Position numbers and translations under genes: made by a program
Part shown: one piece after another, positions 2,932 through 23,959 of the stretch
How positions within the stretch are numbered: the stretch's first letter is position 1
How the letters are laid out: each line of letters begins with the position of its first letter
DNA from: a virus
Reading direction: 5' to 3' (one strand)
Virus record (IMG/VR): IMGVR_UViG_3300020020_000153
Span: 1 to 24,552 of that record
DNA: 24,552 bases
The notes under the pieces: model-generated
What the model saw: only the letters and a program-made list of their open reading frames with translations
Database searches by the model: none
What the model was told of the DNA's origin: nothing

Positions 2932-4439
2932 TACTGGCCCCTTTCGGTTGGAATCCGTACAATCGGATTATCTTGCTCATCAAACAACAACATTGCATTA
3001 CCGGCAGCTATGGCGAATGCGGCCGACAGTAGAAGCGGCCCATGATCTACGCTTAATGCCGCTAGTGAATCAATCCCTAATGCCCGAAGCGAACCAATCA
3101 ACATTAGGTCGATATCTTGCGTTGACCATTCGGGTTCGGGAAGGCTTGCGAAATGAACGAGCACGTTAATTATTTCGTCTAGTTCGGCGGGATCATCAAT
3201 AGTCAATTGATTGACCCAAGCCATCATTAGCGTCTTAGCCCGTGAAATAGGCTTACCATTACTCGGGTGATTTCGCATCGATTCCGCTACCGGATCAATC
3301 CACGTTTCTCCGAACGGGATTGAGTAGTCGGTTTCGATTTGCTCAATCGCTAGTGCGATAGCTTCCAAATCGTCTGCCGAATGCCCCGATTGCTTTAGGC
3401 CCGGAACGCCTTTAGGCCAAACCCTTGTCAATGCCTTTGCGGCAATCTCCGAATGATCGATGATGGCCCGCACCCTTGTCCGCAGATGGTCGGCACGGGC
3501 CTCCGTAGAGGCCTCTGGTTGCCGCTCTACGGGCCTCACGGGCTCGGGGGCCATGGTTGCGGCCGAAGGTGCTTCGGGCTCCGTAGACGGCAAACGTGCG
3601 GCAGATAGCAAGTCGTCACGCCTACGCCAATCCTTCACTTCACTTGCCAACGTCAAGCCTTTCCTACCGGATTCGATATCGACCCAATAGGCATCGATAC
3701 GAGTACCGGCAGAATCGGCATGAATGATTAACGCCCAATCTGCCACGCTAGGCGGATCGAATACATAGCGTTCATCGGTCACAACGTCATAACGCAACGA
3801 ATCAACGTATGCCGCTAATTGTGTGCAATAGCTACCGGCGGCATATTCCAATTCCTTGCCTGTCTTAAGGTCGGCAACAAGTACCGAACCAATCGGGATG
3901 ATTGTTCCGTCGGGAGCAAGCAAAGCCTTAGTAGTGCGGAATCGTCTATCTAACGTGCCTGCCAATCGAAATCGATCATTGATGCAATGGATTTCGATAT
4001 CTTCGACTTCTAGGCCCCAATTCGCCTTAAACTCTATGTAGTTCATGCAAAGTTCAATGTAGTTGGGTGGTGCCAACCATTCGTCTTGCCTGTCGATATG
4101 GTCAAACATGGCATGAACGGCGGTACCGATAACCGACCTACGTTCGCCTTTACCGGCAACCAAACATTTCTCTGCAATATCCCGAAGTTGCTTCTTATTC
4201 AAATCGGGATCAAGTACCGAAGCGGCCGCCATCAATTCTGGTCGTTGTGCGGCACCACTCACTACGGTACGCAATTTCCAATCGGTTAAGTTGGATTCGT
4301 CGTCAAGTATCTTCCCCCCATTACTTGATCGTGAATAGCGAACCCGTTTGCCGTTCGGGTCAAGCACATAAGGAATACCCTTTCCAATCCTTCGGAAATC
4401 GGGCCTATCTGGTGGATCGTATTCGTCTAAATCAACCAT
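2931..4439 (-). CDS. PD-(D/E)XK nuclease, RecB/Cas4-like exonuclease
   Basis: A 502-aa protein from ATG 4439, which gives an 8-base overlap with the gene before it; a GTG at 4451 would add 4 residues. The RecB-type nuclease motifs appear in order: GTAVHAMFDH (H109), GTLDRR (D164), VLVADLKTGK (D190, K192) and QLAAY (Q207-Y211). This family degrades or trims DNA ends in recombination and replication. A low-complexity linker of Pro, Glu and Ala follows at about residues 280-316, encoded by a GC-rich repeat of the dispersed family. The remaining C-terminal 185 residues form a separate helical domain I do not recognise. It sits next to the SSB-like protein, suggesting a recombination or replication pair. 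Confidence 0.85.
   Translation of the reverse strand: MVDLDEYDPPDRPDFRRIGKGIPYVLDPNGKRVRYSRSSNGGKILDDESNLTDWKLRTVVSGAAQRPELMAAASVLDPDLNKKQLRDIAEKCLVAGKGERRSVIGTAVHAMFDHIDRQDEWLAPPNYIELCMNYIEFKANWGLEVEDIEIHCINDRFRLAGTLDRRFRTTKALLAPDGTIIPIGSVLVADLKTGKELEYAAGSYCTQLAAYVDSLRYDVVTDERYVFDPPSVADWALIIHADSAGTRIDAYWVDIESGRKGLTLASEVKDWRRRDDLLSAARLPSTEPEAPSAATMAPEPVRPVERQPEASTEARADHLRTRVRAIIDHSEIAAKALTRVWPKGVPGLKQSGHSADDLEAIALAIEQIETDYSIPFGETWIDPVAESMRNHPSNGKPISRAKTLMMAWVNQLTIDDPAELDEIINVLVHFASLPEPEWSTQDIDLMLIGSLRALGIDSLAALSVDHGPLLLSAAFAIAAGNAMLLFDEQDNPIVRIPTERGQ
3496..3595. repeat. GC-rich dispersed repeat, in frame inside the nuclease gene
   Basis: Shares CCGTAGAGGCCTCT (3503-3516) with 19064-19077. 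Positions 3527-3548 match 23871-23891 except for one extra base. ATGGTTGCGGCC (3553-3564) recurs at 9284-9295. The host gene reads through it as a disordered Pro/Glu/Ala linker (about residues 280-316) between its nuclease and C-terminal domains. Confidence 0.7.
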
Positions 4440-4635
4440 AGAATCCAGCACTTTCCAATTCGACGTTTATTTGATTGATAAGCCCGATCATTCCCGCCAC
4501 GAATCCTCTATGGAATTCGCACGGTTTCCAATTGTCGCCCGGCGACCCATTCGATTCGCAATCTTTGCACTTAGCAATGTGACGACTCAATACGTTGTCG
4601 GCAATCACCACCAATGGCCCCCTAGTTGTCTCCAT
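4432..4635 (-). CDS. Small Cys/His-rich protein, 67 aa
   Basis: Starts METTRGPLVVIADNVLSRHI. It contains CKDCES and, 12-15 residues on, CEFHRG, giving a possible C2-CH zinc site at about residues 23-42. The C-terminal part (GFVAGMIGLINQINVELESA) is a hydrophobic or amphipathic helix. It starts one base after the stop of the Thr-rich protein gene and overlaps the nuclease gene by 8 bases. Function unknown; it may be a small nucleic-acid-binding accessory. Confidence 0.65.
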   Translation of the reverse strand: METTRGPLVVIADNVLSRHIAKCKDCESNGSPGDNWKPCEFHRGFVAGMIGLINQINVELESAGFYG

Positions 4636-4636
4636 A

Positions 4637-5020
4637 TCATTCCGTTACTGGCAACCCGAATACCGGAACGCTTACCTTTGTCGGCACGGGCTTTACCGTT
4701 GTGCTAGTTGCGTTTACCGTTGTGCTAGTTGCGTTTACCGTTGTTGACGTTCCGTCAATTGTGGTTGTAGGCGCAATGGTGGTTGTGCTATTGGGCACGT
4801 CATCATTCGGCGGATTCGTTGTAGTGGTTGTGCTATTCACCGGAAAGCTAAATTGAGATCCCTCAATTGTCGTTGTCGTTGTTGCTTCGGTTGTTGTGGT
4901 TGTTGGGCACGGGCCACCACAACCCGAAATGATTTCGTCGTCGGCATTAGCCCTAATTGCCAGACCACCTATCGCCAACGTCAATCCGCCCACGATTACG
5001 CTTAATCGAATTCGGTTCAT
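4637..5020 (-). CDS. Secreted or anchored Thr-rich low-complexity protein
   Basis: A 127-aa protein with an N-terminal signal-like segment: MNRIRLS, a hydrophobic core VIVGGLTLAIGGLAI, then a possible cleavage at RANADD. The mature part begins with CGGPC and is dominated by runs of Thr (five in a row), Asn, Pro and Val, with a heptad-length repeat STTVNAT encoded by a 21-bp tandem DNA repeat. Such Thr-rich stretches are typical of extended cell-surface stalks in actinobacteria. It lies between RusA and a small zinc protein in the early operon, an odd place for an exported protein. It may modify the infected cell surface, for example superinfection exclusion; that is inference. TGATG overlaps the RusA stop. 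Confidence 0.75.
   Translation of the reverse strand: MNRIRLSVIVGGLTLAIGGLAIRANADDEIISGCGGPCPTTTTTEATTTTTIEGSQFSFPVNSTTTTTNPPNDDVPNSTTTIAPTTTIDGTSTTVNATSTTVNATSTTVKPVPTKVSVPVFGLPVTE
4692..4745 (-). repeat. 21-bp tandem repeat, 2.5 copies
   Basis: The unit starting tttaccgttgtgctagttgc recurs at 4692-4712 and 4713-4733, with a partial third copy from 4734. It encodes the heptapeptide repeat STTVNAT of the Thr-rich protein. Copy number may vary by slippage without breaking the frame, because the unit is seven codons. Confidence 0.9.
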
Positions 5021-5520
5021 CATTCGATCCCATGCTTTGCCATAACGCCCAATAGGATATTTCGACTTTCTCCGAAACGCTTTAGGGTTTCATCTTCTAG
5101 AAAGTCGATAGTTACCCTTGCCCCCGGATTACCGGTCCACGCATAAACCTTTGTAACGGTTACAAAGATTACTTGCGAATCATCCCGCCAAACCACCTTT
5201 GTCATTGGGTCCATAAGGCCCCTAAGTAGTTTGTCGATATCGGGTTTCTTTACGCATGGCAACCAACCCATTTGGTACTTGCGTACCGAACTAGTCGGAT
5301 AGGGCAAGGCGAATTCAACGTATAGGCGAATAGCCTTATCTGACGGATTACGTTCCCCCATAATGGCTATTGCCGCATTCTTTACGTCGGTTCGCCATTC
5401 TCCGAAACGTCGTCGGCTATTTGCCGAACCACTAGGGAGCATTGCCCCATTTGGCATACGGGTTAGCGAACCCTTCGATACGGGATTACCGATAATCGTG
5501 AATGAGATGGAATCCTCCAT
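5020..5520 (-). CDS. rusA: RusA-family Holliday junction resolvase
   Basis: A 166-aa protein from ATG 5520, which lies one base after the stop of the HTH gene. An earlier in-frame start would overlap that gene by about 48 bases. RusA features are clear: N-terminal strand SFTIIGNPVSKGS, a Gly/Arg segment RRRFGEWR, then KPDIDKLLRGLMD with the metal-binding D94 and D96, and VVWRDDSQV with D113. RusA dimers cut Holliday junctions symmetrically, resolving recombination or replication intermediates before packaging. Length is slightly longer than E. coli RusA. It is the second gene of the leftward early operon. Confidence 0.92.
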   Translation of the reverse strand: MEDSISFTIIGNPVSKGSLTRMPNGAMLPSGSANSRRRFGEWRTDVKNAAIAIMGERNPSDKAIRLYVEFALPYPTSSVRKYQMGWLPCVKKPDIDKLLRGLMDPMTKVVWRDDSQVIFVTVTKVYAWTGNPGARVTIDFLEDETLKRFGESRNILLGVMAKHGIE

Positions 5521-5521
5521 A

Positions 5522-5743
5522 TCATGCGACTCTCTTCGGCTTTGATTTGGCCCTAACGAGTCGTTCAATGTCCCGCTTATGCACTAGGCGACGCTTTCCA
5601 ATTCGGTAGTAATCCAATTTCCCTTCGGAGAACATTTGATGGATTCTCTGTCGGCTAACTCCCAATCTGTCGGCAGCTATCATGATTGTCTCTAATTCGC
5701 TCGCCTTTATGACTGCGCCATTACGTTCCATAGGGCCGATCAC
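5522..5743 (-). CDS. HTH excisionase-like DNA-binding protein
   Basis: A 73-aa protein with an excisionase/MerR-type helix-turn-helix: TIMIAADRLGVSRQRIHQMF (helices), then a wing YYRIGKRRLVHKRDIERLV and a basic tail RAKSKPKRVA. GTG 5743 has AGAGGA just upstream; an ATG at 5731 (69 aa) is the alternative. It is the first gene of the leftward early operon and faces the divergent control region 5744-5895. Candidate roles are transcriptional regulator of that region, or recombination directionality factor for the serine integrase. Context favours a regulator; neither is proven. It is also a candidate reader of the 13-bp motif found 39 bases upstream of its start. Confidence 0.8.
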   Translation of the reverse strand: MIGPMERNGAVIKASELETIMIAADRLGVSRQRIHQMFSEGKLDYYRIGKRRLVHKRDIERLVRAKSKPKRVA

Positions 5744-5781
5744 ACTTCCTCTATGTCAAGCGATATGCAAGGAGTTTCTTT

Positions 5782-5794
5782 ATCGTCCCTGGTC
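5782..5794 (-). promoter_or_regulatory. 13-bp motif GACCAGGGACGAT, exact copy
   Basis: The minus strand reads the full motif, pointing toward the HTH gene whose start lies 39 bases downstream. Operator function is inferred from its position in the divergent control region. Confidence 0.5.
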
Positions 5795-5814
5795 GCGCCA
5801 CACATTGTGGGTAC

Positions 5815-5843
5815 TTGACTACTTGACATACGTAAAGTAGGTT
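5815..5843 (+). promoter_or_regulatory. Rightward sigma70-like promoter
   Basis: TTGACT (5815-5820), a 17-base spacer and TAGGTT (5838-5843). A second -35-like TTGACA begins 8 bases later (5823-5828) but lacks a matching -10. Transcription would begin near 5850, giving a leader of about 45 bases before the ATG at 5896. Confidence 0.5.
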
Positions 5844-5845
5844 GC

Positions 5846-5858
5846 TTGCCCTAGGCAA
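5846..5858. promoter_or_regulatory. Palindrome TTGCC-CTA-GGCAA at the promoter start site
   Basis: A 5-bp inverted repeat around CTA lies where transcription should begin, so a bound repressor would block the rightward promoter. Its right half CTAGGCAA is repeated 15 bases on at 5866-5873. Confidence 0.45.
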
Positions 5859-5895
5859 CATTCCACTAGGCAATCCATCAAGTGAACGGGGGAGA

Positions 5896-6207
5896 ATGAA
5901 TCAAATCGAAAGAGCGTATGCCGAATGTCGTTCATTGGGCCATGAATGGCGCAAGGGTAAACCAATGGCAACCGATGAGCTTTCATGGGGGACAATCGGC
6001 ATACCTTCAACGTGCCCGAATTGCGGTACAAGCAAGGTGCGAACAATCACAAGGTCGGGAGAGAGCAAGACTCGGTATGACTATCCCGACGGTTATTCAC
6101 GCCATGGTGACGATGTTCTATCGGTAAAGGAATGGCGGCACGCCTACATCGAAACCATATTCGAGTCATTCGAGAGAGCTACCAAACGTCAGAGGAAAGT
6201 ATCATGA
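5896..6207 (+). CDS. Actinophage-type zinc-ribbon protein, 103 aa
   Basis: Starts MNQIERAYAECRSLGHEWRK. The pattern C..LGHEW, later CPNCGTSKVRTITRSGE and TRYDYPDGY is one I know from many actinophage proteins of unknown function; CPNC with the first C-x5-H could bind zinc. I chose ATG 5896, directly behind GGGGGAGA. The spacing is unusually short, but upstream in-frame starts (TTG 5842) would lie inside the promoter. First gene of the rightward operon; its stop overlaps the next ATG (ATGA). Regulatory or nucleic-acid binding is plausible but not shown. Confidence 0.75.
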   Translation: MNQIERAYAECRSLGHEWRKGKPMATDELSWGTIGIPSTCPNCGTSKVRTITRSGESKTRYDYPDGYSRHGDDVLSVKEWRHAYIETIFESFERATKRQRKVS

Positions 6208-6527
6208 GAACCGAACAAGTATTCATCACATGTGATGAATGCAACGCCATTGACGCAACCGAACTACGGTTTGCCGTCAACAACCGGCCCTATGCAATTG
6301 ACCTATGCCAGACCCACCGAGCCATCTTTGATACGTTGATTCAAACGTATATCACAAATGGTCACGCCGTTCGCTTCAATAACCACACTATTAGAAAGGA
6401 TGCCCCTAAGCCGATTGTCGATACGGCAAATCCAAAGAAGGTCCGAAAGAGTAGGGCGAAAGTAGAAGTACCGGCAATGGCGGTAGATGCCCCAACGATT
6501 GAAACGGAGGAAATCGCTAGTGCCTGA
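6204..6527 (+). CDS. Lsr2-like zinc protein, candidate nucleoid-binding silencer
   Basis: A 107-aa protein. VFITCDECNAIDATELRFAV, then YAIDLCQTHRAIFDTLIQTY, then GHAVRF follows the layout of the Lsr2 N-terminal dimerisation domain (acidic turn, strand, YEIDLS helix, G-R-V), with an added CDEC...CQTH zinc site. The C-terminal 45 residues are basic and Pro/Ala-rich (PKKVRKSRAK), where Lsr2 carries its AT-rich-DNA-binding domain, but I do not see a clear RGR hook. Lsr2 is an actinobacterial xenogeneic silencer, and phage copies can modulate it. ATG overlaps the previous stop; an AGAGGAAAG ribosome site precedes it. Confidence 0.6.
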   Translation: MRTEQVFITCDECNAIDATELRFAVNNRPYAIDLCQTHRAIFDTLIQTYITNGHAVRFNNHTIRKDAPKPIVDTANPKKVRKSRAKVEVPAMAVDAPTIETEEIASA

Positions 6528-6672
6528 ATACGTACTCGTTATTTATGAAGGTTCGATCGATCTAATTTGCGATGAATGCGGATCGGTCAATCACTGGGGA
6601 CCGCCAATTGAACTAGATGAAATCATCGCGAATGCCGACGACCATACGAGCGAGGCACATTCAAATGGCTAA
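6520..6672 (+). CDS. Small Cys-pair protein, 50 aa
   Basis: GTG 6520 lies 9 bases behind a GGAGG site and overlaps the stop of the Lsr2-like gene. The product, MPEYVLVIYEGSIDLICDEC and 30 more residues, has one CDEC pair like its neighbour and an acidic C-terminus with several His. Half of a zinc site is visible, so it may dimerise around metal. Function unknown. Its stop overlaps the next ATG (ATGGCTAA). Confidence 0.6.
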   Translation: MPEYVLVIYEGSIDLICDECGSVNHWGPPIELDEIIANADDHTSEAHSNG

Positions 6673-7132
6673 ATTGGTTGCAACGTATGCCGAAGGATTC
6701 TTTGCCGTATTCACCGAAAGCCGTTCGGGAATGCAACAACGAGCGTTGATCGACATAGGCGACAAAGTTCCTACCCCTAAGGAAATGGCGGAATTAGCGG
6801 GAGTCCTATCCGATCAATGGGGATGGGGCAACGTCATTGAACGTTCGCCATCGTCAAAGGCAAAGGAATTGCCGTCAGAGAATAAGCGGGCCTATGCAAA
6901 GCCACGATCTACCGGCGAACCTGTAGGGGCAATTCGTGAGCAAATGATTCTTGATTACGTGGCAAATCACCCGAAAGCTACCGGTAGGGAAATTCTTGAG
7001 GGTTTAGGGTGGGAATTCACGAAAGCTAGAATCTCACGATGGCAGCATGCGTTCACGGCATTGATTCGGGCGAATCAATTGGTGGCCGAAACGGTTGCCG
7101 CTAGTCGCATTAAGCTCTATTCGTTGCCATGA
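6665..7132 (+). CDS. Winged-helix-like protein, candidate phage regulator
   Basis: A 155-aa protein starting MAKLVATYAEGFFAVFTESR. The N-terminal half is unrecognised. After a Ser/Lys/Pro linker (about 70-90), the C-terminal 60 residues (REQMILDYVANHPKATGREI through LVAETVAASRIKLYSLP) have the helix order of a winged-helix DNA-binding domain. It is the last gene of the rightward operon and is followed by a strong terminator. By position, this operon is where an immunity repressor or lysogeny functions could lie; this protein is the best candidate in it, but that is inference. Confidence 0.6.
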   Translation: MAKLVATYAEGFFAVFTESRSGMQQRALIDIGDKVPTPKEMAELAGVLSDQWGWGNVIERSPSSKAKELPSENKRAYAKPRSTGEPVGAIREQMILDYVANHPKATGREILEGLGWEFTKARISRWQHAFTALIRANQLVAETVAASRIKLYSLP

Positions 7133-7144
7133 ATAGAAACGAAA

Positions 7145-7177
7145 AGGCCCCCGAATCTCCCATGGATTCGGGGGCCT
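7145..7177. terminator. Strong bidirectional hairpin terminator
   Basis: A 13-bp perfect stem, AGGCCCCCGAATC against its complement at 7165-7177, with a 7-base loop. A-rich sequence precedes it and TATCTT follows it. It lies between convergent genes ending at 7132 and 7193, so it probably serves both. Confidence 0.85.
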
Positions 7178-7192
7178 ATCTTGCTTCGGGGA

Positions 7193-7537
7193 TTACGAGA
7201 GGGTAACGAATACCCGATATCGCTTACCGGATTCGATGGGGGAGGTTTCCACCTTAAAGGCCTCTCCCGCAGCCTTTCGGATTTGGGCAATCCGATTGAC
7301 CGGGTGGCCTCCGTCCTCATCGGGGGAACGCATTTCATACGTTCCGGGTGCCTCAATTGAAGCGAGGAAAGCCTCAATTGCGGGCACGTTGCTCGCCCTA
7401 CCGCCACGCTTACCGGGTGCGGGCTTATCTTCGGGCTTGATTGCTACTGCGGTAAAGGCCAACTTGGCACCTTCCTTTGTTTCGGGTGAATTGACCTTAT
7501 CACCGCCGTCGGGATTGTCTAGCTTCTTTGTTGCCAT
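7193..7537 (-). CDS. Small basic hypothetical protein beside attP
   Basis: A 114-aa protein starting MATKKLDNPDGGDKVNSPET. The N-terminal 50 residues are Lys/Pro/Gly-rich and probably disordered (KPEDKPAPGKRGGRASN). The C-terminal 60 are compact, with VNRIAQIRKAAGEAF then a KVETSPIESGKRYRVFVTLS beta hairpin, which could be a small winged helix. It stands alone, convergent with the rightward operon and divergent from attP/integrase. Candidate roles include a recombination directionality factor or DNA-binding regulator; neither has sequence proof. AAGG lies 9 bases before the ATG. Confidence 0.6.
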   Translation of the reverse strand: MATKKLDNPDGGDKVNSPETKEGAKLAFTAVAIKPEDKPAPGKRGGRASNVPAIEAFLASIEAPGTYEMRSPDEDGGHPVNRIAQIRKAAGEAFKVETSPIESGKRYRVFVTLS

Positions 7538-7627
7538 GGGCCGACCTTAACGCTTGACATTGGTTAAGTGCAAGGTGGGCCGATGGGCGAATCTCCCCCG
7601 TTGTAGCTCCCGTTGCTTGCGCCGTTC

Positions 7628-7670
7628 TAGGCCCCCGTACGAGGCCTCCCGAGCTTGCCTCGCATGGCCC
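7628..7670. repeat. GC-rich dispersed repeat island
   Basis: Contains AGGCCCCCGTACGAGGCCTC and CATGGCCCG elements of the same family seen at 9284-9540, 19047-19110 and 23850-23957. It is shorter and more degenerate than the other copies. Confidence 0.5.
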
Positions 7671-7672
7671 GT

Positions 7673-7685
7673 GACCAGGGACGAT
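7673..7685 (+). promoter_or_regulatory. 13-bp motif GACCAGGGACGAT, exact copy beside attP
   Basis: Ends one base before the left arm of the attP palindrome and reads toward the integrase. A bound protein here could control integrase expression, or access of the integrase to attP. Function is inferred. Confidence 0.5.
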
Positions 7686-7686
7686 G

Positions 7687-7738
7687 CCAGTTGCACCTAG
7701 TGCCCGATTCCAAGCAATCGGGGAGTGACTGCAACTGG
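7687..7738. other. Candidate attP of the serine integrase (52-bp imperfect palindrome)
   Basis: Outer arms CCAGTTGCA (7687-7695) and TGCAACTGG (7730-7738) and inner arms CCCGATT (7703-7709) and AATCGGG (7716-7722) are perfect inverted repeats. They are symmetric about 7712/7713, with unpaired 7-base segments between them. Large serine integrases use attP sites of about 50 bp with this two-tier symmetry, one tier each for the recombinase and zinc-ribbon domains, and usually encode attP right next to the integrase, as here. The central dinucleotide would be AA, which is non-palindromic as directionality requires. An RNA hairpin in the integrase leader is the alternative reading. Confidence 0.7.
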
Positions 7739-7791
7739 TGGTACCCTAGGGTTTCGGTAGTTTGACCTTTGTAAAGGAGAAAGTTTCAACC

Positions 7792-9210
7792 ATGGCTAGC
7801 AAGCGTAAATCTCAACAAACGATTGACTCGGAAATTAAGCGAGTCGCTATTTACGTTCGGTATTCCAACCTAGGTGGGCGCAATAAGGAAACGCTAACGA
7901 CATTAGATACGCAAGAATCGGGATGCCGTGCCCATTGTGCTTATAAGGGTTGGGAAGTTGTAAAGGTGCTGGCCGATCCTGGTCGTTCGGCATTCAAGAA
8001 GAATACACCTAGGCCCGAATATGATGAGGCTTTGCGAATGATCCAAACGGGCCAAATTGACGCCATCGTTGTTTGGAAAGTCGATCGGTTTACCCGTTCG
8101 TTGCATCAATTCACAAAGGATTGGCACGATATCGAATCTGCGGGAGGCCATTTCGTTTCCGTTATGGAGCAATTCGATACGTCAATTCCAATGGGCCGAC
8201 TTATGTTGACGCTAGTGGTCGGATTTGCCGAACTAGAATCGGAAATGAAATCGGAACGGGCTATTCCTATGCACGCATTCCTAAAGGAGAATGGAAAGGT
8301 GGGACCGGGCCCACGCCCATACGGTTATGACCGAACCAATAGCAAGAATGGCGAGGGTGCTTGCCTTACCGTTAATCGCAAAGAAGCGGATTTGCTCCAA
8401 ACGGCGGCTAAGTGGGTATTGGATGGCAAATCCCTTTCATCGTTTATCCACACCTATCAACCGAACTCGTCGGTTGCCAATAAGAAGATGACCTATCACG
8501 GGTTGCGTTCATCGCTCATCAATCCAACAACGGCGGGCCTCCGTACTTGGGATGAATCACCCGACGGATATAAAGAAGGGAATTGGACGCCCATTATTGA
8601 GCGGGAAATGTGGAACAAGGTCGTTGCACTTATTACCGATCCCGCTAGGCGTGCCCATTTGAATTCGACTTCAAAGTCGCATTTGCTTTCGGGATTGATG
8701 GTCTGCCCGGAATGCAATAAGAACGTTCATGCTCGGGGATGGGTAAGCAATACCACCAAACAACGTACAAAGCGTTATGCGTGCCCAACCTGTTACCGTT
8801 CGGTTGATATGGCGGCAGCCGATCCCGTGGCAGTAGAAATGCTATTTGATGCCGTGCCCGAATCGAAATGGCAAGCGTGGCAATCTGCCGGTACGGGTTG
8901 GGATATCGACGTAATCAAAGGGTACGAAGCGAAACTTGCTTTGATCGATAAGCAGTATTCCGACGACATTATCGGGGATGATCGATGGATGACAATGACG
9001 GCGGATATCCAAGCAAAGATTGATTCGGCCAACAATTCCGAACCGCTTGATATCCCCATGATTCCTCATCTTCGGAATGGTTGGGATGAATTGTCGCTAC
9101 ACGATAAGCAAAGGGTATTTCGTCAAGCCTTTGCGTCGATTCACATTCTTCCGGCTAAAGGTGCGGAACGTTTCAACGTGCGAACCCGTATCGCAATGAA
9201 CGAGAGGTAA
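7792..9210 (+). CDS. int: Large serine recombinase, phage integrase
   Basis: A 472-aa protein from ATG 7792, behind AAAGGAG (spacing about 12, slightly long). The catalytic domain starts VAIYVRYSN with nucleophile Ser25. VWKVDRFTRS carries the conserved Arg residues, and GRLMLTLVVGFAELESE is the long E-helix segment. The recombinase domain includes GPRPYGYD; a zinc ribbon follows with CPEC and CPTC (around residues 305-335), and then a coiled-coil-like C-terminus. It catalyses attP x attB integration without host factors; excision needs a phage directionality factor. The gene stands alone with its own terminator, and attP lies 54 bases upstream. The length is typical for the family. Confidence 0.95.
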   Translation: MASKRKSQQTIDSEIKRVAIYVRYSNLGGRNKETLTTLDTQESGCRAHCAYKGWEVVKVLADPGRSAFKKNTPRPEYDEALRMIQTGQIDAIVVWKVDRFTRSLHQFTKDWHDIESAGGHFVSVMEQFDTSIPMGRLMLTLVVGFAELESEMKSERAIPMHAFLKENGKVGPGPRPYGYDRTNSKNGEGACLTVNRKEADLLQTAAKWVLDGKSLSSFIHTYQPNSSVANKKMTYHGLRSSLINPTTAGLRTWDESPDGYKEGNWTPIIEREMWNKVVALITDPARRAHLNSTSKSHLLSGLMVCPECNKNVHARGWVSNTTKQRTKRYACPTCYRSVDMAAADPVAVEMLFDAVPESKWQAWQSAGTGWDIDVIKGYEAKLALIDKQYSDDIIGDDRWMTMTADIQAKIDSANNSEPLDIPMIPHLRNGWDELSLHDKQRVFRQAFASIHILPAKGAERFNVRTRIAMNER

Positions 9211-9238
9211 CCCAACCCAACAAGGCAAGTTCAAACGA

Positions 9239-9268
9239 GAGGCCCGCACGTTTCGACGTGCGGGCCTC
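9239..9268 (+). terminator. Integrase terminator hairpin
   Basis: Perfect 12-bp stem GAGGCCCGCACG / CGTGCGGGCCTC with a 6-base TTTCGA loop, followed by the T-rich GTTTCGTTTCT. It starts 28 bases after the integrase stop. Confidence 0.85.
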
Positions 9269-9270
9269 GT

Positions 9271-9542
9271 TTCGTTTCTAGGCATGGTTGCGGCCCCCGA
9301 GCCCGTAGAGGCCCGTAGAGAGGCTTACGAGGCCTCGTAACGGGCCATCCCAACGAGGCAAGCAAACGGCACGGTTCTACGGAGCATCCCAACGGCGGGA
9401 GGCCTCGCTAGCTCCGTTCACGTTGCCGCCTACGGGCCTCCACGGGCCTAGGTGGTATGCACATGGCCCGGAGGCCCCCGAGCCCGTTAGAACGGCACCT
9501 AGGGGCCTCTCGTGCCATCGTCCCTGGTGGCGGCCTAGATCG
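9271..9542. repeat. GC-rich repeat region at a convergent junction
   Basis: No gene is supported in this 272-bp stretch. It is built of AGGCCC/GGGCCT palindromic elements: two abutting CCCGTAGAGG units (9298-9320), an ACGAGGCCTCGT palindrome near 9330, and a 22-bp segment (9419-9440) whose exact inverted copy is at 23920-23941. CATCCCAACG occurs twice (about 9347 and 9386). A 12/13 copy of the 13-bp motif sits at 9518-9530 on the minus strand. It may terminate leftward virion transcription. Confidence 0.7.
9518..9530 (-). promoter_or_regulatory. 13-bp motif, 12/13 copy
   Basis: The minus strand reads CACCAGGGACGAT, one mismatch from the exact motif. It lies at the very end of the virion operon within the GC-rich repeat region. 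A stoperator-like role at a transcript end is possible but unproven. Confidence 0.4.
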
Positions 9543-9800
9543 TTACGGGATTCGGAGGGATTGAACGGCGGCAAGAATGTCGTTATCCGAAATAACCGAT
9601 TGATCGTTACCGGGCCTCGCAATACCGTTAAGGATTGCAGATGCGTATTTGTCGCCAAACCCAGGCATTCCCGCCATGGGCCAAATGTGATTGTTTGTCC
9701 ATTCAATCGGGTCGGGTTCACCTTCACTAGATACGCAAGCTCGAATACGATAGATGAAATCGTTATCGCTAGTGAGTAGTGCAACATCGGAATAGGCCAT
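9543..9800 (-). CDS. Small conserved phage protein of the tail-end region, 85 aa
   Basis: Starts MAYSDVALLTSDNDFIYRIR and continues with a Trp-rich middle and PGFGDKYASAILNGIARPG. I recognise this pattern (AYTD..., one to two Trp, PGF.D.YASA, GNDQSVISDNDILAAVQ) from small proteins in tail regions of actinophages, function unknown. A good AAGGGG ribosome site precedes the ATG. It is the last gene of the virion operon. It could be a tail-tip accessory or chaperone. Confidence 0.7.
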   Translation of the reverse strand: MAYSDVALLTSDNDFIYRIRACVSSEGEPDPIEWTNNHIWPMAGMPGFGDKYASAILNGIARPGNDQSVISDNDILAAVQSLRIP

Positions 9801-9815
9801 GATTTCCCCTTGCGA

Positions 9816-16213: not shown

Positions 16214-16215
16214 GA

Positions 16216-17028: not shown

Positions 17029-17400
17029 CTATTCGGTTTCGGGGATTTCCTCAGTAGGCGGCAATTCGTCAACCTTTACGGCTTTGTATTCGTCCGCAGG
17101 TTCCTCGCTTACGTCATCGGCAATCGCACCGGTCAAAGTGAATTCGGCAGAATCCCTCGCATTACCGCTTACAACGGTTGCCATATAGACGGCGGCAATC
17201 CCGTAGGTATGCGTAGCCATTTCGGTATCGGTCCTAACATTCTGACCATCACCAAATCCTAGAGTGGCAATATGCCCGTCACTATTCCACGTAAAGTCAA
17301 TAGTGAGTGTTCCGGGCCTAACCGTGCCAACTAACATCAAATCATGGGCACTAGGCAATCCGTAAAGGGATGGCGGATAACTCGTATCGTAGTAACTCAT
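17029..17400 (-). CDS. PKD/Ig-like domain protein, candidate capsid decoration protein
   Basis: A 123-aa protein beginning MSYYDTSYPPSLYGLPSAHD. Residues about 20-85 look like a PKD fold: GTLTIDFTWNSDG, then ATLGFGDGQ (the GDG turn), then THTYGIAAVYMATVVSG. The C-terminal 30 residues are highly acidic (SEEPADEYKAVKVDELPPTE). It lies 5 bases after the capsid stop and before a terminator, so it would be made in large amounts with the capsid. Ig-like decoration proteins on phage heads are well known; it could also be a head-tail spacer. The ATG at 17400 lacks a strong ribosome site and may be coupled to the capsid stop. Confidence 0.65.
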   Translation of the reverse strand: MSYYDTSYPPSLYGLPSAHDLMLVGTVRPGTLTIDFTWNSDGHIATLGFGDGQNVRTDTEMATHTYGIAAVYMATVVSGNARDSAEFTLTGAIADDVSEEPADEYKAVKVDELPPTEEIPETE

Positions 17401-17405
17401 ACGAA

Positions 17406-18644
17406 TTACGTCCAATCAATCTTAACGGTTCCATTCCGTTCGGGAGTAGCACCCTCCGTAGTAATAGGCGAATAGAAACCGATAAAGGTTGCAACGGCAA
17501 CTTGCCGACCATAAACGCTCGGCTCAAATGCCTGCATAAGCGGCATAGGCTTCTCGTAAATCTCCAAGCCAAATGAGTTACCAACGTAAATCGACTTATC
17601 GGTAATGGCGGGAGTAATGGCGGCCCTAAGTCCGAACATGGATTGGAAGTAGGCATCTGCGCCACCAGACCCATAAGCATTAACCGGGCCAACTGGCGGG
17701 ACCATTGGCCTACCGGCAAGGTCACTCACTCCGATAAGGCTTCCCCAAGCTTCCGGGCCCATAGCAATCCACGTAGGAAGATTGCCGGTATTAGCAACAA
17801 CGGTTGAAGCGGCAGTACCGATAGCAGCAGTAATGGCGGCGGAATCGTTACCGGTAAGCGGCACGATTGCAGTCGTCTTATCAAGCTCGGCAACAACGGC
17901 AGTCTCCGAATAAGCCTCAACCCGGCGGTTCATATGGCTAACCACCATATCAAGCGAACCGGAAAGCATTTCGGTAAGAACTTCCGAAACGTTGATATAA
18001 CCACCAACACGCTTAGTCGTCACCAGTTCCGAAACGATATCCCAAGCCTTACTTGGCATTTCGGATTTCTCCAAAGCAACAACGCCAACGCCAGTAGAGA
18101 AATTAGGGTCAACAATGCGAGGCCGATTAAAGGTAAGGCTAGTGAGTTGCCGTGCCCCAATTGCGGTAAAGAGTGGACGACCAGTAGGGCTCGGGTCAAG
18201 TACCGGGCCAACAACGGGAGCAACAACCAAACCGTTAAAGCCTCCGGCAACGGCAACGGTATTAGCCTTATCAAATCCCATATGCTCTGCGGCACGCTTC
18301 ATGTAGCGACTCATACGCATATCGGCATCGGGATTGTCGGTACGGTGAATCATGTCATAAAGGAAATCACCGGCGGTTCGGTAAGAGAAATCCTTAGCGA
18401 CAATCGTGGGATCAAGTGCCCGAATGCGATTCTTTGCAGTATCGGCCAATTCCAAATCTTGCGAAAGCCGATCAACCTGATTGTTGAGAGCCCTAACTCG
18501 ATCTTGGGCACCGGTAATGGTTTGATTCTCCGATTCCAGAAGGTCTCTACCCTCGTCATCGGCAGTGCTAGCGATTTGATCGATAAGAGCAAGCTTCTGG
18601 TCTCTCTCATCAAGAAGCCGCTTAACCATATTGTCAATTGCCAT
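17406..18644 (-). CDS. HK97-fold major capsid protein
   Basis: A 412-aa protein. Residues 1-90 are a charged coiled coil (KRLLDERDQKLALIDQIAST, NNQVDRLSQDLE), the delta/scaffold domain that the protease removes. The mature fold starts near AGDFLYDMIHRT and includes the E-loop/spine region (VVGPVLDPSPTGRPLFTAIG, then VTTKRVGGYINVSEVLTEML) and a C-terminal A-domain (IYVGNSFGLEIYEKPMPLMQ, FIGFYSP). AAGGA lies 9 bases before the ATG. It is separated from portal and protease by the amidase/membrane-protein cassette, which is unusual. Confidence 0.9.
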   Translation of the reverse strand: MAIDNMVKRLLDERDQKLALIDQIASTADDEGRDLLESENQTITGAQDRVRALNNQVDRLSQDLELADTAKNRIRALDPTIVAKDFSYRTAGDFLYDMIHRTDNPDADMRMSRYMKRAAEHMGFDKANTVAVAGGFNGLVVAPVVGPVLDPSPTGRPLFTAIGARQLTSLTFNRPRIVDPNFSTGVGVVALEKSEMPSKAWDIVSELVTTKRVGGYINVSEVLTEMLSGSLDMVVSHMNRRVEAYSETAVVAELDKTTAIVPLTGNDSAAITAAIGTAASTVVANTGNLPTWIAMGPEAWGSLIGVSDLAGRPMVPPVGPVNAYGSGGADAYFQSMFGLRAAITPAITDKSIYVGNSFGLEIYEKPMPLMQAFEPSVYGRQVAVATFIGFYSPITTEGATPERNGTVKIDWT

Positions 18645-18744
18645 CGTCTTAATCCTTTACATTTGAAGGGTTCGTTATTCAAATGAAGGTTGCGATTGCA
18701 ATTGCTTTAGGTTGCCCCAAATGAATGAGGGTTGCTATGCAACG
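18645..18744 (-). promoter_or_regulatory. 100-bp capsid leader with two inverted repeats
   Basis: An 8-bp inverted repeat CATTTGAA/TTCAAATG (18660-18667, 18678-18685) lies just upstream of the capsid ribosome site. A GTTGC-TAT-GCAAC palindrome (18731-18743) lies at the end of the membrane-protein gene. I see no clear promoter, but this is the largest gap in the virion operon and a capsid-specific promoter or RNA-level control is plausible. Confidence 0.35.
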
Positions 18745-18999
18745 TTATTCGGGTGCTTCGTAGTTTCTTTCTATCTCACGCCTACGGGTTACGTCAATTG
18801 ATTGTTTATTACGCAAGTCAAACGGAGAACGTAGCGTGAGATTATCAATAGGGAGAACGCCGACCATTATCATTCCGACTACCAACTTTGGAATAACGTT
18901 AGTGGATTCGGTCAATCCATCGACGATAATCCAGACACCTAATGCAAATACCACTATCCGACGTAAGGCATTAAAGAAACGCCAAACGTCATTCGGCAT
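18745..18999 (-). CDS. Two-helix membrane protein, candidate holin
   Basis: An 84-aa protein starting MPNDVWRFFNALRRIVVFAL. Hydrophobic segments at about residues 14-30 (IVVFALGVWIIVDGL) and 36-52 (IPKLVVGMIMVGVLPID), a short Asn/Thr loop, and a charged C-terminus (TRRREIERNYEAPE): class II holin-like size and layout. ATG shares a base with the upstream TAA (TAATG). With the adjacent two-helix gene and the amidase it forms a lysis cassette. Which of the two is the pore former cannot be told from sequence. Confidence 0.65.
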   Translation of the reverse strand: MPNDVWRFFNALRRIVVFALGVWIIVDGLTESTNVIPKLVVGMIMVGVLPIDNLTLRSPFDLRNKQSIDVTRRREIERNYEAPE

Positions 19000-19211
19000 T
19001 AGAGAACAAGCAAGCCGATAGCTACGGCGGCACTAGCGAACCATGGCAGGGAGGCCCGGAGGCCCGTAGAGGCCTCTACGTGGCCCGTAGACGGCCGATC
19101 GGAGGCCCGGAGCACTGCCAGCACACCCAACGCCAGAAACGCAACGGCGGCCCCTAGGAAGAACCAATCGGAAAGCAAAGTGTGACTATCAAAGATTCCG
19201 TTAGCGAACAT
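18999..19211 (-). CDS. Two-helix membrane protein with repeat-encoded loop, candidate holin or antiholin
   Basis: A 70-aa protein (71 aa if started at the ATG of 19214, three bases upstream). The first segment WFFLGAAVAFLALGVLAVL and a last segment LPWFASAAVAIGLLVL flank a short hydrophilic loop (RASDRPSTGHVEASTGLRAS). The loop is encoded exactly by a GC-rich dispersed repeat (19047-19110), while the helices are in ordinary sequence. Its start overlaps the amidase stop (TGATG). A holin/antiholin pair with the neighbouring gene is the natural guess. Confidence 0.65.
   Translation of the reverse strand: MFANGIFDSHTLLSDWFFLGAAVAFLALGVLAVLRASDRPSTGHVEASTGLRASLPWFASAAVAIGLLVL
19047..19110. repeat. 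GC-rich dispersed repeat inside a membrane protein gene
   Basis: Built of GAGGCCCGGAGGCCCGTAG and TGGCCCGTAGACGG elements. It shares the 14-mer CCGTAGAGGCCTCT (19064-19077) with 3503-3516. It encodes the inter-helix loop of the holin-like protein without disturbing the frame. Confidence 0.75.
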
Positions 19212-20161
19212 CATCCCTCGTTTGATTTGGCGATGAAATCATCGAATACGGAAGGGTCGGTATCTAGCCAATTGCCGAACCGCTCTTGATATGCGCCTAA
19301 ATCATTAAAGGCCAAACCCGTAGCGGTTACTCCTGCGCCATCATAAGCAAGCAATACAACTTGCCCGGTATCGCTATTGCGAATAATGAACGTAGCCATA
19401 TCATCCTCGTCGGTTTCGGGAATTGGGTAAGTCGGGTGTGGCGGAATTGGATCGGTGCTGTCAATGAAAGCTTGTAAACGCCTATTAGATTCGTCACGGA
19501 TATCTTGCACGTTCCAACTACGGGAGGAATTGACAACGGAAGGAATCCAATTGCCGGACACATTGTCTGTAGCGGGATCAATCTTCCTATCGGGAGCGTA
19601 ATAGTTATGCGTCGACAAATCGTCAACCCGATTGCCAAACCAAAGGTTCATTGCGATATTGGTTCGGAACATGGCGTTTATCTGTACTTCGGGCCAATTC
19701 TCGCCAACGCCATTATTGCCGCATTCGACGCCCAAAGCGTAACTATTCATTCCGTCGGCAGGAACCGTGCCACGGCTAAAGGGAATTGAAATACCCTTGC
19801 CATTCGTATTGGTTGCGCCAGCGGCAATTACCCACACATTACCGCCACGATCAATATACAGATTAGAAATAGGCGAATTCTCATCACCATAAGCGATATA
19901 GCTAGCATCATTCCAACCATCGGAATTAGGGCCGCTGGCAGTGTGATGCCACATCACACACAAAGGCCAACTAGCGAAACCTCCCGAGCTACGTGCACGG
20001 GTTTCCCAACCATCAACTTCAATAACGTTTAATCCGACGTATCGCAAGATATCCGCCATACCCGTTAGCCAAACGGTTCCTTTAGCGGCACGCCTTTGGG
20101 CAATTAGGGCATCACGTCTATCGTAAACATCATCAATGGTGATATCACCGAAATCAGCCAT
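19211..20161 (-). CDS. Endolysin: N-acetylmuramoyl-L-alanine amidase (PGRP/Amidase_2)
   Basis: A 316-aa protein from ATG 20161 (8-base overlap with the protease gene; ATG 20194 would overlap 41 bases). The N-terminal 50 residues are a small charged module (DDVYDRRDALIAQRR). The zinc amidase follows: VMWHHTASG (H72/H73), LYIDRGGNVWVIAAG (101-115), ALGVECGNNGVGENWPE (142-158) and THNYYAPDRKIDP (H185, D196). The C-terminal 65 residues, after a Pro linker (PIPPHPTYPIPETDED), form a distinct domain that could bind cell wall. It cleaves the amide bond between MurNAc and the peptide. No signal peptide is seen, so it needs a holin for export. Confidence 0.9.
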   Translation of the reverse strand: MADFGDITIDDVYDRRDALIAQRRAAKGTVWLTGMADILRYVGLNVIEVDGWETRARSSGGFASWPLCVMWHHTASGPNSDGWNDASYIAYGDENSPISNLYIDRGGNVWVIAAGATNTNGKGISIPFSRGTVPADGMNSYALGVECGNNGVGENWPEVQINAMFRTNIAMNLWFGNRVDDLSTHNYYAPDRKIDPATDNVSGNWIPSVVNSSRSWNVQDIRDESNRRLQAFIDSTDPIPPHPTYPIPETDEDDMATFIIRNSDTGQVVLLAYDGAGVTATGLAFNDLGAYQERFGNWLDTDPSVFDDFIAKSNEG

Positions 20162-20747
20162 TGCGTTGACTAGCCAACCATTCCTTAACGCCATTCAACA
20201 AAGGCGTAACGGGTTCGCATTCCTCATTAGATCGAAGCGTAAGAATGCCAGCGCTTTGATATGCGGGACTAGGGGTAGCGGCAACGTGAGCGACAAATAC
20301 CTGCACTCTTTGCACAATGTCATTAACAATCTTGGGCGTTCTAACGTCTCGAAATGAAATCGACAAACCGGTATGCGATTCACTAAGTACGCTTCTAATC
20401 TTTGTGATTCGGGCATCATCGTAAAGTCGAAATGACGCATATGCGCCGTCATCCTCATCCCGCAATTCGGTAGCGTGACCGACCATATTGTCGAAATTAT
20501 CGTTATGGTCGATCAAGAGCGGGATAAATTGCCCATTAGCAAACTTTCCGCCACGGGAGGCAAACCCTTGCGCCATTGCGGCAAGCGAATGAGGCAAGAA
20601 CGTTTCTTGATATCGAACCAAAGTATTTGATTCGGTATCCATTTCAACAACGTTCGCAACTTCGTTGTACGGCACAATTCGCCCGGTCAATGTGCGACCA
20701 TCATCCCGCAACTCGAAATCTGCGGATCGGATAAACGTTGATTTCAC
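20154..20747 (-). CDS. HK97-type prohead maturation protease
   Basis: A 197-aa protein starting MKSTFIRSADFELRDDGRTL. It shows the serine-protease (U35) pattern: LTGRIVPYNEVANV strand, PLLIDHNDNF with H81, HTGLSISFRD with the nucleophile Ser near 129, and HVAATPSPAYQSAGI with H154. It cleaves the capsid delta domain during head maturation. The start overlaps the portal stop by 4 bases (ATGA) and the stop overlaps the amidase gene by 8. It is normally followed directly by the capsid gene; here lysis genes intervene. Confidence 0.9.
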   Translation of the reverse strand: MKSTFIRSADFELRDDGRTLTGRIVPYNEVANVVEMDTESNTLVRYQETFLPHSLAAMAQGFASRGGKFANGQFIPLLIDHNDNFDNMVGHATELRDEDDGAYASFRLYDDARITKIRSVLSESHTGLSISFRDVRTPKIVNDIVQRVQVFVAHVAATPSPAYQSAGILTLRSNEECEPVTPLLNGVKEWLASQRNG

Positions 20748-22042
20748 GGGATTACCCCTTCCAATTCAATAACCGAATCGGGATCATTCGGGGCAAGCCG
20801 ATTACCCAAACGGATTTCGTCAATCGTCTTAGCTCGGTTTCCATGCTCATCAATCAAGTTGAATAGGGTTTGGTCCGTTTGTGCCCGAGTCAAATCGTCC
20901 GCCCGAATGTAATCGTCCCGGTTGAATTCAACTCGGGTACCCCTAGGCAGTAGCCAATTAGACATTGCCCTAGCGGCAAATGCGGCAGCCGTTCTAAGTG
21001 TGGTTCTCCAATGGAAATCAAGAAGTGAAATCGCATTGGCGTAAGTAAGTCCGCCCGGTTGCGGCAATCCGACCAAATAGGGTGGAACGCCCAAAGCGGC
21101 ACAAATCCTTGTTTCGTCAAAGATTCGTTGCTCCAACATCATCATTTCACGGGGAGAAATGGTGAGGGTTTCCAATTCCAAAGTTCCCGAAAGGATTGCC
21201 GGAGCACCCTGCCGATTACGTGAACCTTCGACCCAACGGCTTTGCAAATCGGAAGCTTCTTTACTATTCAACTTCCGTTGCGATTTGAGAACCGCCCATG
21301 GAATACCGCCACGGGTAGCTAGGTCGGTATTCATCCTTTCCAATGCTGCCGCCGATGCGATGGATTTAGCGGCCCATTCGAGCGGCCCAATGCCTCGCAA
21401 GTTGGTAGGCATGGATTGGTATTTGATATGACAAACATCATTCGGGTCTAGGGTGAGGTTTCCCAAACGGTATTCAATTGCGCCATCGGACAATTCGATA
21501 TTGACCAATTGCGGATTAAGAACGACAAACCGAGCTACCGACCCAATACCGCCCGGCCCCAAACCGTCTTTGTATCTACCCGTAGCCCAAAGGATTACTT
21601 CGCCCATTGCGTAATAGGTATTAAAGATTTGTTTCGCCGCTTCGGAGAAATCGGAATACAAACTAGGTTCGGGATTATTCGACCAATCGGGTAATGCGAC
21701 TACCTTTACCCCTTTGACACCGTAAATGGGAAAGGATGCCAATTGCCGACTATTCAAATCAATGCAAGTCCATAGCGTTGATACAAGCCGTTGTGGAAAG
21801 GCATCACCATTCCATAACGGCGTTTCCCATCCCGTAGGCCATCCTTGCCAGGCTTGTACTTCTGGCATATGCCCCGAAGATTCCAAATGACCTTCGGGAT
21901 ACATAACGTGATTATCGCCAAATCCCGGCTCTACATTGTCGCCAACGGAACCACTCACGGGATTGCTATTAGGGTTGGAATCCCTAGGAATCGCCCTATT
22001 TCGATAGTCCCGAATGACGATTAGGGAATTAGGGTCAGACAT
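20744..22042 (-). CDS. Portal protein, HK97 family
   Basis: A 432-aa protein starting MSDPNSLIVIRDYRNRAIPR. After a disordered, Asn/Ser-rich N-terminus, typical portal elements follow: VSTLWTCIDLNSRQLASFPI, IKYQSMPTNLRGIGPLEWAA, GTLELETLTISPREMMMLEQ and RICAALGVPPYLVGLPQPGG with the channel-helix region LDFHWRTTLRTAAAF. The dodecameric portal is the DNA entry/exit vertex and terminase docking site. It is the first gene of the leftward virion operon and diverges from the terminase genes across a 56-bp gap. Confidence 0.92.
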   Translation of the reverse strand: MSDPNSLIVIRDYRNRAIPRDSNPNSNPVSGSVGDNVEPGFGDNHVMYPEGHLESSGHMPEVQAWQGWPTGWETPLWNGDAFPQRLVSTLWTCIDLNSRQLASFPIYGVKGVKVVALPDWSNNPEPSLYSDFSEAAKQIFNTYYAMGEVILWATGRYKDGLGPGGIGSVARFVVLNPQLVNIELSDGAIEYRLGNLTLDPNDVCHIKYQSMPTNLRGIGPLEWAAKSIASAAALERMNTDLATRGGIPWAVLKSQRKLNSKEASDLQSRWVEGSRNRQGAPAILSGTLELETLTISPREMMMLEQRIFDETRICAALGVPPYLVGLPQPGGLTYANAISLLDFHWRTTLRTAAAFAARAMSNWLLPRGTRVEFNRDDYIRADDLTRAQTDQTLFNLIDEHGNRAKTIDEIRLGNRLAPNDPDSVIELEGVIP

Positions 22043-22098
22043 CGCAAATCACTCTCGCACATATTGCGCCTAAGTGCAATCGGTAGTTAACTCCACAC
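22043..22098. promoter_or_regulatory. 56-bp divergent late-promoter region
   Basis: This is the only space from which both the virion operon (left) and the HNH/terminase pair (right) can be started. It carries an ATTGC...GCAAT inverted repeat (22063-22067, 22076-22080) with an 8-base loop. No consensus sigma70 promoter is clear on either strand, suggesting an activator-dependent late promoter. Confidence 0.4.
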
Positions 22099-22365
22099 AT
22101 GACCGGCGTTCGATATAAGAAACATTTAGACGATCCCGCATATAGGGCTTACAAGCAATGGCTAGCTATGGAGGAAATCCAATGCCATGAATCGGATTGC
22201 GTCAATCGGGCATCAACTCCCGACCATTGCCCACCTATTTCCGAATTTCCCGACCCTTCGCTTTGGTCGGGAGTATTCAAACCACATTGCCGGTATCACT
22301 CAAATCGGCAGGGAGCGTTAATGCGTTGGGCACGTAAGGCCCCTACCAACACAAGGGAATGGTGA
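22099..22365 (+). CDS. Small HNH endonuclease-like protein
   Basis: An 88-aa protein starting MTGVRYKKHLDDPAYRAYKQ. It has an HNH-type layout: C-x4-C (CHESDC), TPDHCPP where DH would be the first catalytic pair, a WSGV spacer, and PHCRYHSNRQG as the closing zinc/N element. HNH proteins beside the terminase are required for cos cleavage by some HK97-like phages, so this may be the packaging nuclease partner. There is no ribosome site before the ATG, so a leaderless transcript is possible. The stop overlaps the terminase ATG (TGATG). Confidence 0.75.
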   Translation: MTGVRYKKHLDDPAYRAYKQWLAMEEIQCHESDCVNRASTPDHCPPISEFPDPSLWSGVFKPHCRYHSNRQGALMRWARKAPTNTREW

Positions 22366-23840
22366 TGATTACAACGGCGGCAGCACCACGCATTAGCACA
22401 AAGCTAGATACGTACAAACCGAATCTAGGTTGGTACTTCGACGAAATGAGTAACCAATTAGGGTTTGAACCCTACGCATGGCAAACGTTGGTCAATTCAA
22501 CTAGCACCATGCTTTCCGAAAGGGGCACGCCATTTGAGGGACAATCAAGCCTTAAATACAATTCGTCTCATGTCGGCGTCATGGTTGGGCGTCAAAGCGG
22601 AAAGACGAAATGGGCGGCAGCTAGGGTAATGGGTCAAGCAATGTTGCCGTATAGAACCGACATTGCCGAAATCGTTGGGCTAAAGCGAATCATTCCGCAA
22701 CAAATCGTATATACCGCACAAAGGCGAGTTACCGCCGTTGAACGGTGGAAGGAACATTGCGGAATCATCGTGGACTATATGGGTGAATATGTAGAGCATC
22801 TAGCGGGACAAACGGGGCATGAATGCCTCACGTTTACCAATGGGTCAACGTATAAGCCTGTCACACCTACCAAGAATGCCGCTAGAGGCATGACGGCTGA
22901 TCTAGTGATTGTTGATGAGGCCTTAACGCATTCGCTTTGGTTGCTCGGTACGTTGCGGCCCATCATGGCCCAAAGGCATTCGGCTAACGGTTGTATCGGC
23001 TCACAATTCGTCGTTATCTCCAATGCCGGTAATGATGATTCGGAGCTACTTAATCATTTGCAAGAATTGGGGCACCGGGCGGTTAAAGCCGATGATGATT
23101 CACGGGTTTGGTTTGAATGGTCGATGAATCCCGGGAGCGATCCATTAGCGGAATCAACATGGCTAGACACAATGCCTACCCTCAATCAACCAAACGGCAT
23201 TTCCCTAGAGTTTATGCGTGAGGAAATGGCGTCAATGCGATTGGGCGACTTTATGCGTGAGTATTTGTGCCATAAGACTAATGACGGTTCCGATAGGGTT
23301 ATTGATTGGGAGCAATGGCAGACCCTATATCGTGACGATGTTTGGTTGACCAATGATCCTGTCATTGCCATTGACGTTTCATGGGATAGGCAACGGGCGG
23401 CAATCGTAGGTTGTAGCTCGGTAGGCGACTATCTGCCAATTGAAGTAATCCAAGCGGCCGAAGGAGTTGATTGGATTATTGATAGGACAATTGACATTGC
23501 CGAACGTAGGGGTTGTGCGGTAGTTATCGATACCGGAGGCCCGGCAGCATCAATGGTGATGATTCTAGAGAATAGAGGAATTGAAGTTATTCCTTATGCG
23601 GCTAAAGATGTAGCAAATGCCGCAGCTTGTTTCTATGACAATGTGCGATCAAAGCGAATCACACATTTGAATGACTTTCGTTTGAATGACGCTATCAAAG
23701 GTGCGACTAAGCGGCCGATTGGCGAACGATGGGGATTCAACCGTAAAGGCAATGTTGATATCTCACCACTAGTGGCAGCATCATTTGCCGTTTATGCGAT
23801 TGAATCGGGTCGATTCGACAAGCCGACCCTATTCACATAA
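22365..23840 (+). CDS. Terminase large subunit
   Basis: A 491-aa packaging motor from ATG 22365, which is spaced 6 bases from AAGGGA; an ATG at 22359 is immediately upstream but leaves no spacing. Walker A is GRQSGKT (residues 75-81), Walker B LVIVDEA (D184, E185), followed by coupling motif VVISNAGNDD. The RNase-H-like nuclease domain begins VIAIDVSWDRQRAAIVGC, continues with CAVVIDTGGPAA and ends around NVDISPLVAASFA. It cuts and pumps genomic DNA into proheads. It is on the opposite strand to the portal. No small terminase is recognisable nearby. Confidence 0.93.
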   Translation: MITTAAAPRISTKLDTYKPNLGWYFDEMSNQLGFEPYAWQTLVNSTSTMLSERGTPFEGQSSLKYNSSHVGVMVGRQSGKTKWAAARVMGQAMLPYRTDIAEIVGLKRIIPQQIVYTAQRRVTAVERWKEHCGIIVDYMGEYVEHLAGQTGHECLTFTNGSTYKPVTPTKNAARGMTADLVIVDEALTHSLWLLGTLRPIMAQRHSANGCIGSQFVVISNAGNDDSELLNHLQELGHRAVKADDDSRVWFEWSMNPGSDPLAESTWLDTMPTLNQPNGISLEFMREEMASMRLGDFMREYLCHKTNDGSDRVIDWEQWQTLYRDDVWLTNDPVIAIDVSWDRQRAAIVGCSSVGDYLPIEVIQAAEGVDWIIDRTIDIAERRGCAVVIDTGGPAASMVMILENRGIEVIPYAAKDVANAAACFYDNVRSKRITHLNDFRLNDAIKGATKRPIGERWGFNRKGNVDISPLVAASFAVYAIESGRFDKPTLFT

Positions 23841-23959
23841 GCAATCGGTCACGAGGCCTCACGTTGCGTTCTACGGGCCTACGGGCTCGGGATGGCGCAA
23901 CCGTCGCCCGGAGGCCCTAGAGGCCCGTAGGCGGCAACGTGGCGGGAGCTAGGCGGCCC
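23841..23959. repeat. GC-rich dispersed repeat at the terminase/lysin convergent junction
   Basis: CTACGGGCCT (23871-23880) and AGGCCCGTAG (23921-23930) form a 10-bp inverted repeat with a 40-base loop. Positions 23871-23891 match 3527-3548 with one indel, and the 22 bases 23920-23941 are an exact inverted copy of 9419-9440. It probably acts as a bidirectional terminator. No gene is seen. Confidence 0.75.

Follow-up and report, generated by a model that had tools for sequence, protein, structure and literature searches.

Five GC-rich islands in the genome of an actinophage-like siphovirus share short words to a degree that shuffled and simulated sequence does not approach, and relatives of the phage carry islands at the equivalent sites, written in words of their own. 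In the reading that we favour, with a probability slightly above one half (about 0.55), the islands would be quasi-palindromes fixed at their sites, with words kept alike by copying within the genome, mainly through template switching.

The window, i.e. the whole stretch of DNA analysed (24,552 bases, IMG/VR virus record IMGVR_UViG_3300020020_000153), comes from an actinophage-like siphovirus of soil and encodes a portal, major capsid protein, tape measure and amidase as well as the genes listed below. Megablast of the whole window revealed no named phage relative, and its protein matches in the phage collection are to actinophages, at only about 28-32% identity. All of its close kin are contigs from IMG/VR. 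Two of them, L040 (19.1 kb) and L028 (5.9 kb), come from one metagenome and are about 82-88% identical to the window over long aligned blocks; since an ungapped comparison of their 199-base overlap gives only 144 matching positions, they were treated as two close relatives and not as one genome. G002 (L014 plus L029, 26.3 kb) is about 71-77% identical to the window over long blocks, and L031 about 75-78%. For comparisons of lineages, A denotes the window, B L040/L028, C G002 and D L031 (two sites only). Searches for tRNAs and for known RNA families gave no match. The genes that matter here are as follows.

2931-4451, minus strand: RecB/Cas4-like exonuclease
7762-9210, plus strand: serine integrase
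9543-9800, minus strand: tail-end gene, convergent with the integrase
18999-19214, minus strand: two-helix membrane protein of 71 aa, holin-like by its position beside the amidase
22359-23840, plus strand: large terminase
24067-24465, minus strand: gene convergent with the terminase

The islands, together with one terminator-like hairpin, are placed among them thus, in the gene context first described for them (exonuclease linker, membrane-protein loop and two convergent junctions).

3490-3600, minus strand: linker island, within the exonuclease gene, encoding P/E/A/R-rich linker residues; GC 0.70
7570-7690, no strand: island upstream of the integrase, a weak member, highly conserved with L040
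9239-9268, plus strand: integrase terminator-like hairpin with a 13-bp stem, z -7.8, the stem beginning GAGGCCCG
9284-9540, no strand: post-integrase island, where the integrase converges with the minus-strand gene 9543-9800
19030-19115, minus strand: loop island, between two hydrophobic stretches of the 71-aa membrane protein
23841-23992, no strand: post-terminase island, where the terminase converges with the minus-strand gene 24067-24465, with a long hairpin at 23861-23940

The four block identities by which an earlier note had tied the islands together all proved exact. Positions 3503-3516 equal 19064-19077 (block CCGTAGAGGCCTCT), 3553-3564 equal 9284-9295 (block ATGGTTGCGGCC), 3527-3548 match 23871-23891 with a one-base indel, and 9419-9440 are the exact inverse of 23920-23941, at 22 bp the longest match between islands. 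Self-comparison bears out the grouping, a BLAST search of the genome with the 9284-9540 island as query returning only the other islands and itself. The linker island has 12-41 9-mers in common with three other islands, and the post-integrase island 29-48 with the linker, membrane-protein and post-terminase islands. The weakest member, at 7628-7670, has no 9-mer in common with the linker and membrane-protein islands and three with the post-terminase island; it has an 11-12-bp GAGGCCTC word in common with the post-integrase island and with no other, and the longest match of that pair (13 bp) is part of a separate motif, ACCAGGGACGAT. Because both CTACGGGCC and GGCCCGTAG are used on coding strands, yielding the peptides STG and RPVE, we take the island words to act at the level of DNA and not of peptide.

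Islands are present at the equivalent sites in G002 and, where covered, in L031, the word types being GAGGCCCGTAG in the window, CGGCCGCC in G002 and GAGCCCGCTAG in L031. Word sharing, measured as shared 9-mers per 10^4 cells between different (non-orthologous) sites, is far higher within than between genomes when A/B, C and D are set against each other: the values within genomes are 8.8 (A), 6.4 (B), 2.8 (C) and 7.8 (D), and those between genomes 0.76 (A-C), 0.60 (B-C), 2.07 (A-D), 0.77 (B-D) and 1.3 (C-D). The A-B value is 7.1, and A and B therefore have one vocabulary; their sharing at non-orthologous sites equals that within A, and homogenisation postdating the A-B split is not evident. 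In G002 a 20-bp block is common to the membrane-protein loop and the post-integrase site. Since part of this block is kept in the window's loop and is absent from the window's post-integrase island, its distribution suggests copying out of a gene.

The islands fold better than their shuffles. The post-terminase hairpin (23861-23940) reaches -53.7 kcal/mol with a z of -3.95, and is found in other sequence in L028 and in L031 (z -3.2 for the L031 orthologue), the G002 hairpin being weak (z -0.8); the fold at post-integrase positions 9395-9530 has a z of -3.2, and those of the linker and loop DNA a z of about -2.3. The right arm of the post-terminase hairpin is conserved. Its left arm is of the GTTCTAAGC or GTCTAAGC type in B, C and D and reads CACGTTGCGTTCTACGGGCCTACGGGCTCGG in the window. 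Alignment scores of the window's left arm are 21 with the linker copy, 19 with the inverse of the right arm and 9 with the L028 orthologue, while the left arms of L028 and L031, the latter more distant, score 21 with each other. These figures point to a rewriting of the left arm in the window lineage, by which it came to resemble closely other islands or its partner arm; the window's arm still scores 18 against L031, and partial retention or reversion is possible. A second mark is provided by the linker and post-integrase copies, which are one 38-nt unit differing by one extra base and by an inverted 8-bp spacer, ATGGTTGC in one and GCAACCAT in the other, flanked by GGCC on each side.

Template switching between short inverted repeats is documented to produce both arm homogenisation and spacer inversion, coding DNA included (PMC8604942). 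The same two marks are seen here, arm homogenisation in one lineage as one event only, and taken together the arm replacement and the spacer flip point to template switching at quasi-palindromes. The base for this mechanism is thin, consisting of one polarised arm replacement and one spacer flip, both spotted by inspection. Among known systems the quasipalindrome template-switch loci are the closest in mechanism, sharing with the islands arms made alike, an inverted spacer and occurrence in coding and noncoding DNA; events at those loci are, however, local to one inverted repeat, whereas the islands' word recurs at distant sites and differs by lineage (PMC8604942). On our reading the islands would be old, site-fixed, GC-rich quasi-palindromic stretches at places where the phage genome tolerates change, namely the two convergent junctions, the protein linker, the membrane-protein loop and, weakly, the region upstream of the integrase. 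Their words would be kept alike inside a lineage by intragenomic copying, and we infer polymerase template switching as its main agent, between the arms of inverted repeats and between islands, which would homogenise arms, flip spacers and seed the word at other tolerant sites. From such copying it would follow that words turn over between lineages while sites stay.

A terminator pattern with a U tract was found only at 9239-9268, right after the integrase, where the beginning of the stem is an island word and L040 has a paired change; no U tract follows the post-terminase hairpin. For these reasons a role of the two junction islands as transcript ends, though plausible, is one that we can only infer. 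Another hairpin, perfect and built of G/C runs (GGGGGCGGGGGGATCTAAAGATCCTCCCCCCGCCCCC), lies between genes at 643-714 and has a similar counterpart in L040 at 833-902; it is probably a terminator and outside the island word family.

Several further features of the window were recorded. The motif TGACCAGGGACGAT occurs with 0-3 mismatches at 207, 741 (minus), 838, 5782 (minus), 7672 and 9517 (minus), in gaps between listed genes; L040 has copies of it and G002 has variants, and it is possibly a stoperator-like site or the operator of a repressor. An imperfect inverted repeat, CCAGTTGCA...TGCAACTGG, lies at 7686-7741, immediately upstream of the integrase gene, in a region nearly identical in L040 and not common to G002; this is a possible attP. 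At the contig end (24469-24552) lies a 30-bp near-identical direct repeat (93%, spacing 54). The L028 and G002 contigs also end near it, so that it may mark a genome end or be a repeat at which assembly breaks. Extreme avoidance of short words switches between relatives (window, L040, L028, L033, L034, L042, L044, L045 and L046). In the window, runs of three A or T occur 694 times and runs of four 3 times; G002 has 97 of four and 7 of five; CGCG is seen 7 times in the window against 70 expected (A-run counts are direct; counts and expectations for non-palindromic words were halved by the script). L033 and L034 are without CTTC and CGCG, L042 is nearly without CCTC, and L045 and L046 are without AATT and AAAA, while the CG dinucleotide ratio ranges across the kin from 1.5 to 0.16. 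Restriction avoidance is one guess for this behaviour; AAAA is not palindromic.

Conserved sites with lineage-specific words are also what might be expected if the word were the recognition site of a phage or host protein (a repressor, or a factor of the nucleoid, of packaging or of recombination), the two changing together between lineages, and the inverted pairs at convergent junctions resemble those of DNA uptake sequences (DUS; PMC3630211). We consider this explanation rather unlikely: copies are few (AGGCCCGTAG occurs six times), spacing and orientation are not fixed, the words cluster in GC-rich hairpins and not at promoters, and the other motif, ACCAGGGACGAT, looks more operator-like. 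Cluster O mycobacteriophages have 17-bp dyad repeats that are among the closest in pattern, being likewise palindromic, phage-wide, intergenic and coding, and of unknown function, but these comprise more than 30 copies of one fixed motif, whereas the islands consist of irregular blocks, 10-38 nt long, at few sites (PMC4351075). Compared with stoperators and Cluster O-type repeats, the island copies are few and irregular, and protein binding of the word is putative. A related and unlikely possibility is that the DNA dialect word at a few equivalent sites is peculiar to each lineage and putatively read by a factor, of phage or host, that evolves along with it, as a phage counterpart of DUS dialects. 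Those of the Neisseriaceae are likewise among the closest in pattern, with a short lineage-specific word, inverted terminator pairs and intragenic copies (PMC3630211); they differ in that DUS serve transformation and are genome-wide in bacteria, the phage islands being a handful of copies with no known reader.

A genome-wide word preference, or GC-rich composition alone, might make unconstrained DNA converge on like words, and both the extreme word avoidance that differs between relatives and the P/A/E/R/G/T-rich residues encoded by the coding islands, which raise GC, speak for some such influence. The five islands have 314, 116 and 43 shared 8-, 10- and 12-mers, respectively. Trinucleotide-preserving shuffles of the islands gave a mean of 5.1 and a maximum of 17 shared 10-mers, so that local composition, the control put forward in the earlier note, does not account for the shared blocks. 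Markov models of order 3-6, trained on the genome outside the islands and on its close kin, and tilted to island GC, gave means of 2.8-6.9 and a maximum of 25 against the observed 116, and matches of at most 18 bp, the observed 22 bp never being reached. B also shows the excess over these vocabulary models, and C shows it clearly for 10-mers and the longest match and marginally for 8-mers. In D, with its two sites only, the longest match of 15 is just above the 14 that simulation reached at most, and the counts of 8- and 10-mers lie inside the simulated range. Furthermore, island GC is 0.67-0.71 against 0.496 for the genome, but several other noncoding gaps, some of which may contain unlisted small genes, are not GC-rich (0.41-0.54). 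Composition and vocabulary, very unlikely as the explanation, are largely refuted by simulation as a full one; they may contribute to which words arise.

It had also been proposed that the islands are a mobile family inserted in frame, in the manner of Rickettsia palindromic elements. Those elements are palindromic repeats between and inside genes, present as discrete insertions of 100-150 bp. The islands are likewise palindromic and both inter- and intragenic; unlike in the Rickettsia elements, insertion is not seen. The membrane protein is 69-71 aa with equal loop length in five phages (window, L028, L029, L031 and L169; L031 measured from the aligned start), among which the loop DNA differs. 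The exonuclease linker, from WRR to WP, has 70 residues in the window; three homologues of 32% identity have 66, and island words are absent from their linker DNA except for one GAGGCC in one homologue. Insertion like that of the Rickettsia elements was rejected on this lack of protein lengthening, and the comparison of nuclease and holin-like genes, suggested as a way to reveal clean absence of an insert, found nearly equal lengths with or without the words. Aligned between the window and L040/L028, the islands are identical in about 79-84% of aligned columns and show small indels but nothing cleanly gained or lost, and no clean empty site was found among the relatives, whose equivalent sites carry islands. 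A discrete element with the same ends at differing sites was likewise rejected, the blocks spanning 10-38 nt with ends that vary.

No source in a host was apparent either. The 16-mer GAGGCCCGTAGAGGCC has 56 exact matches, one per stretch, in 84,980 bacterial and archaeal genomes (257 Gb), where about 120 are expected (4^-16, two strands); this is about chance or fewer, and therefore no host repeat is evident. A REP/BIME or MITE family of the host, for which many copies would be looked for, was rejected on these scattered single matches in the genomes scanned. The islands have no blastn match in 50,697 phage records, a scan of genomes by terminase alignment gave no prophage, and the repeat family is confined to the window phage and its kin. 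A mobile palindromic element (of RPE, REP/BIME or MITE type), for which the dispersal of palindromic units and the position of two inside genes in tolerant places had argued, is thus highly improbable. What stands of the original proposal is a real, hairpin-forming and apparently recombinogenic repeat family in a tolerant linker, a loop and two convergent junctions; its mobility and in-frame insertion are not supported.

If template switching at site-fixed quasi-palindromes is the right reading, no mobile element is needed for in-frame repeats of a DNA word to arise inside genes: errors of hairpin copying would write a word into a tolerant linker or junction, and every lineage would end with its own word. 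This would be a caution against calling mobile palindromic elements from a single genome, and these phages would offer a natural system in which to measure template switching in phage evolution.
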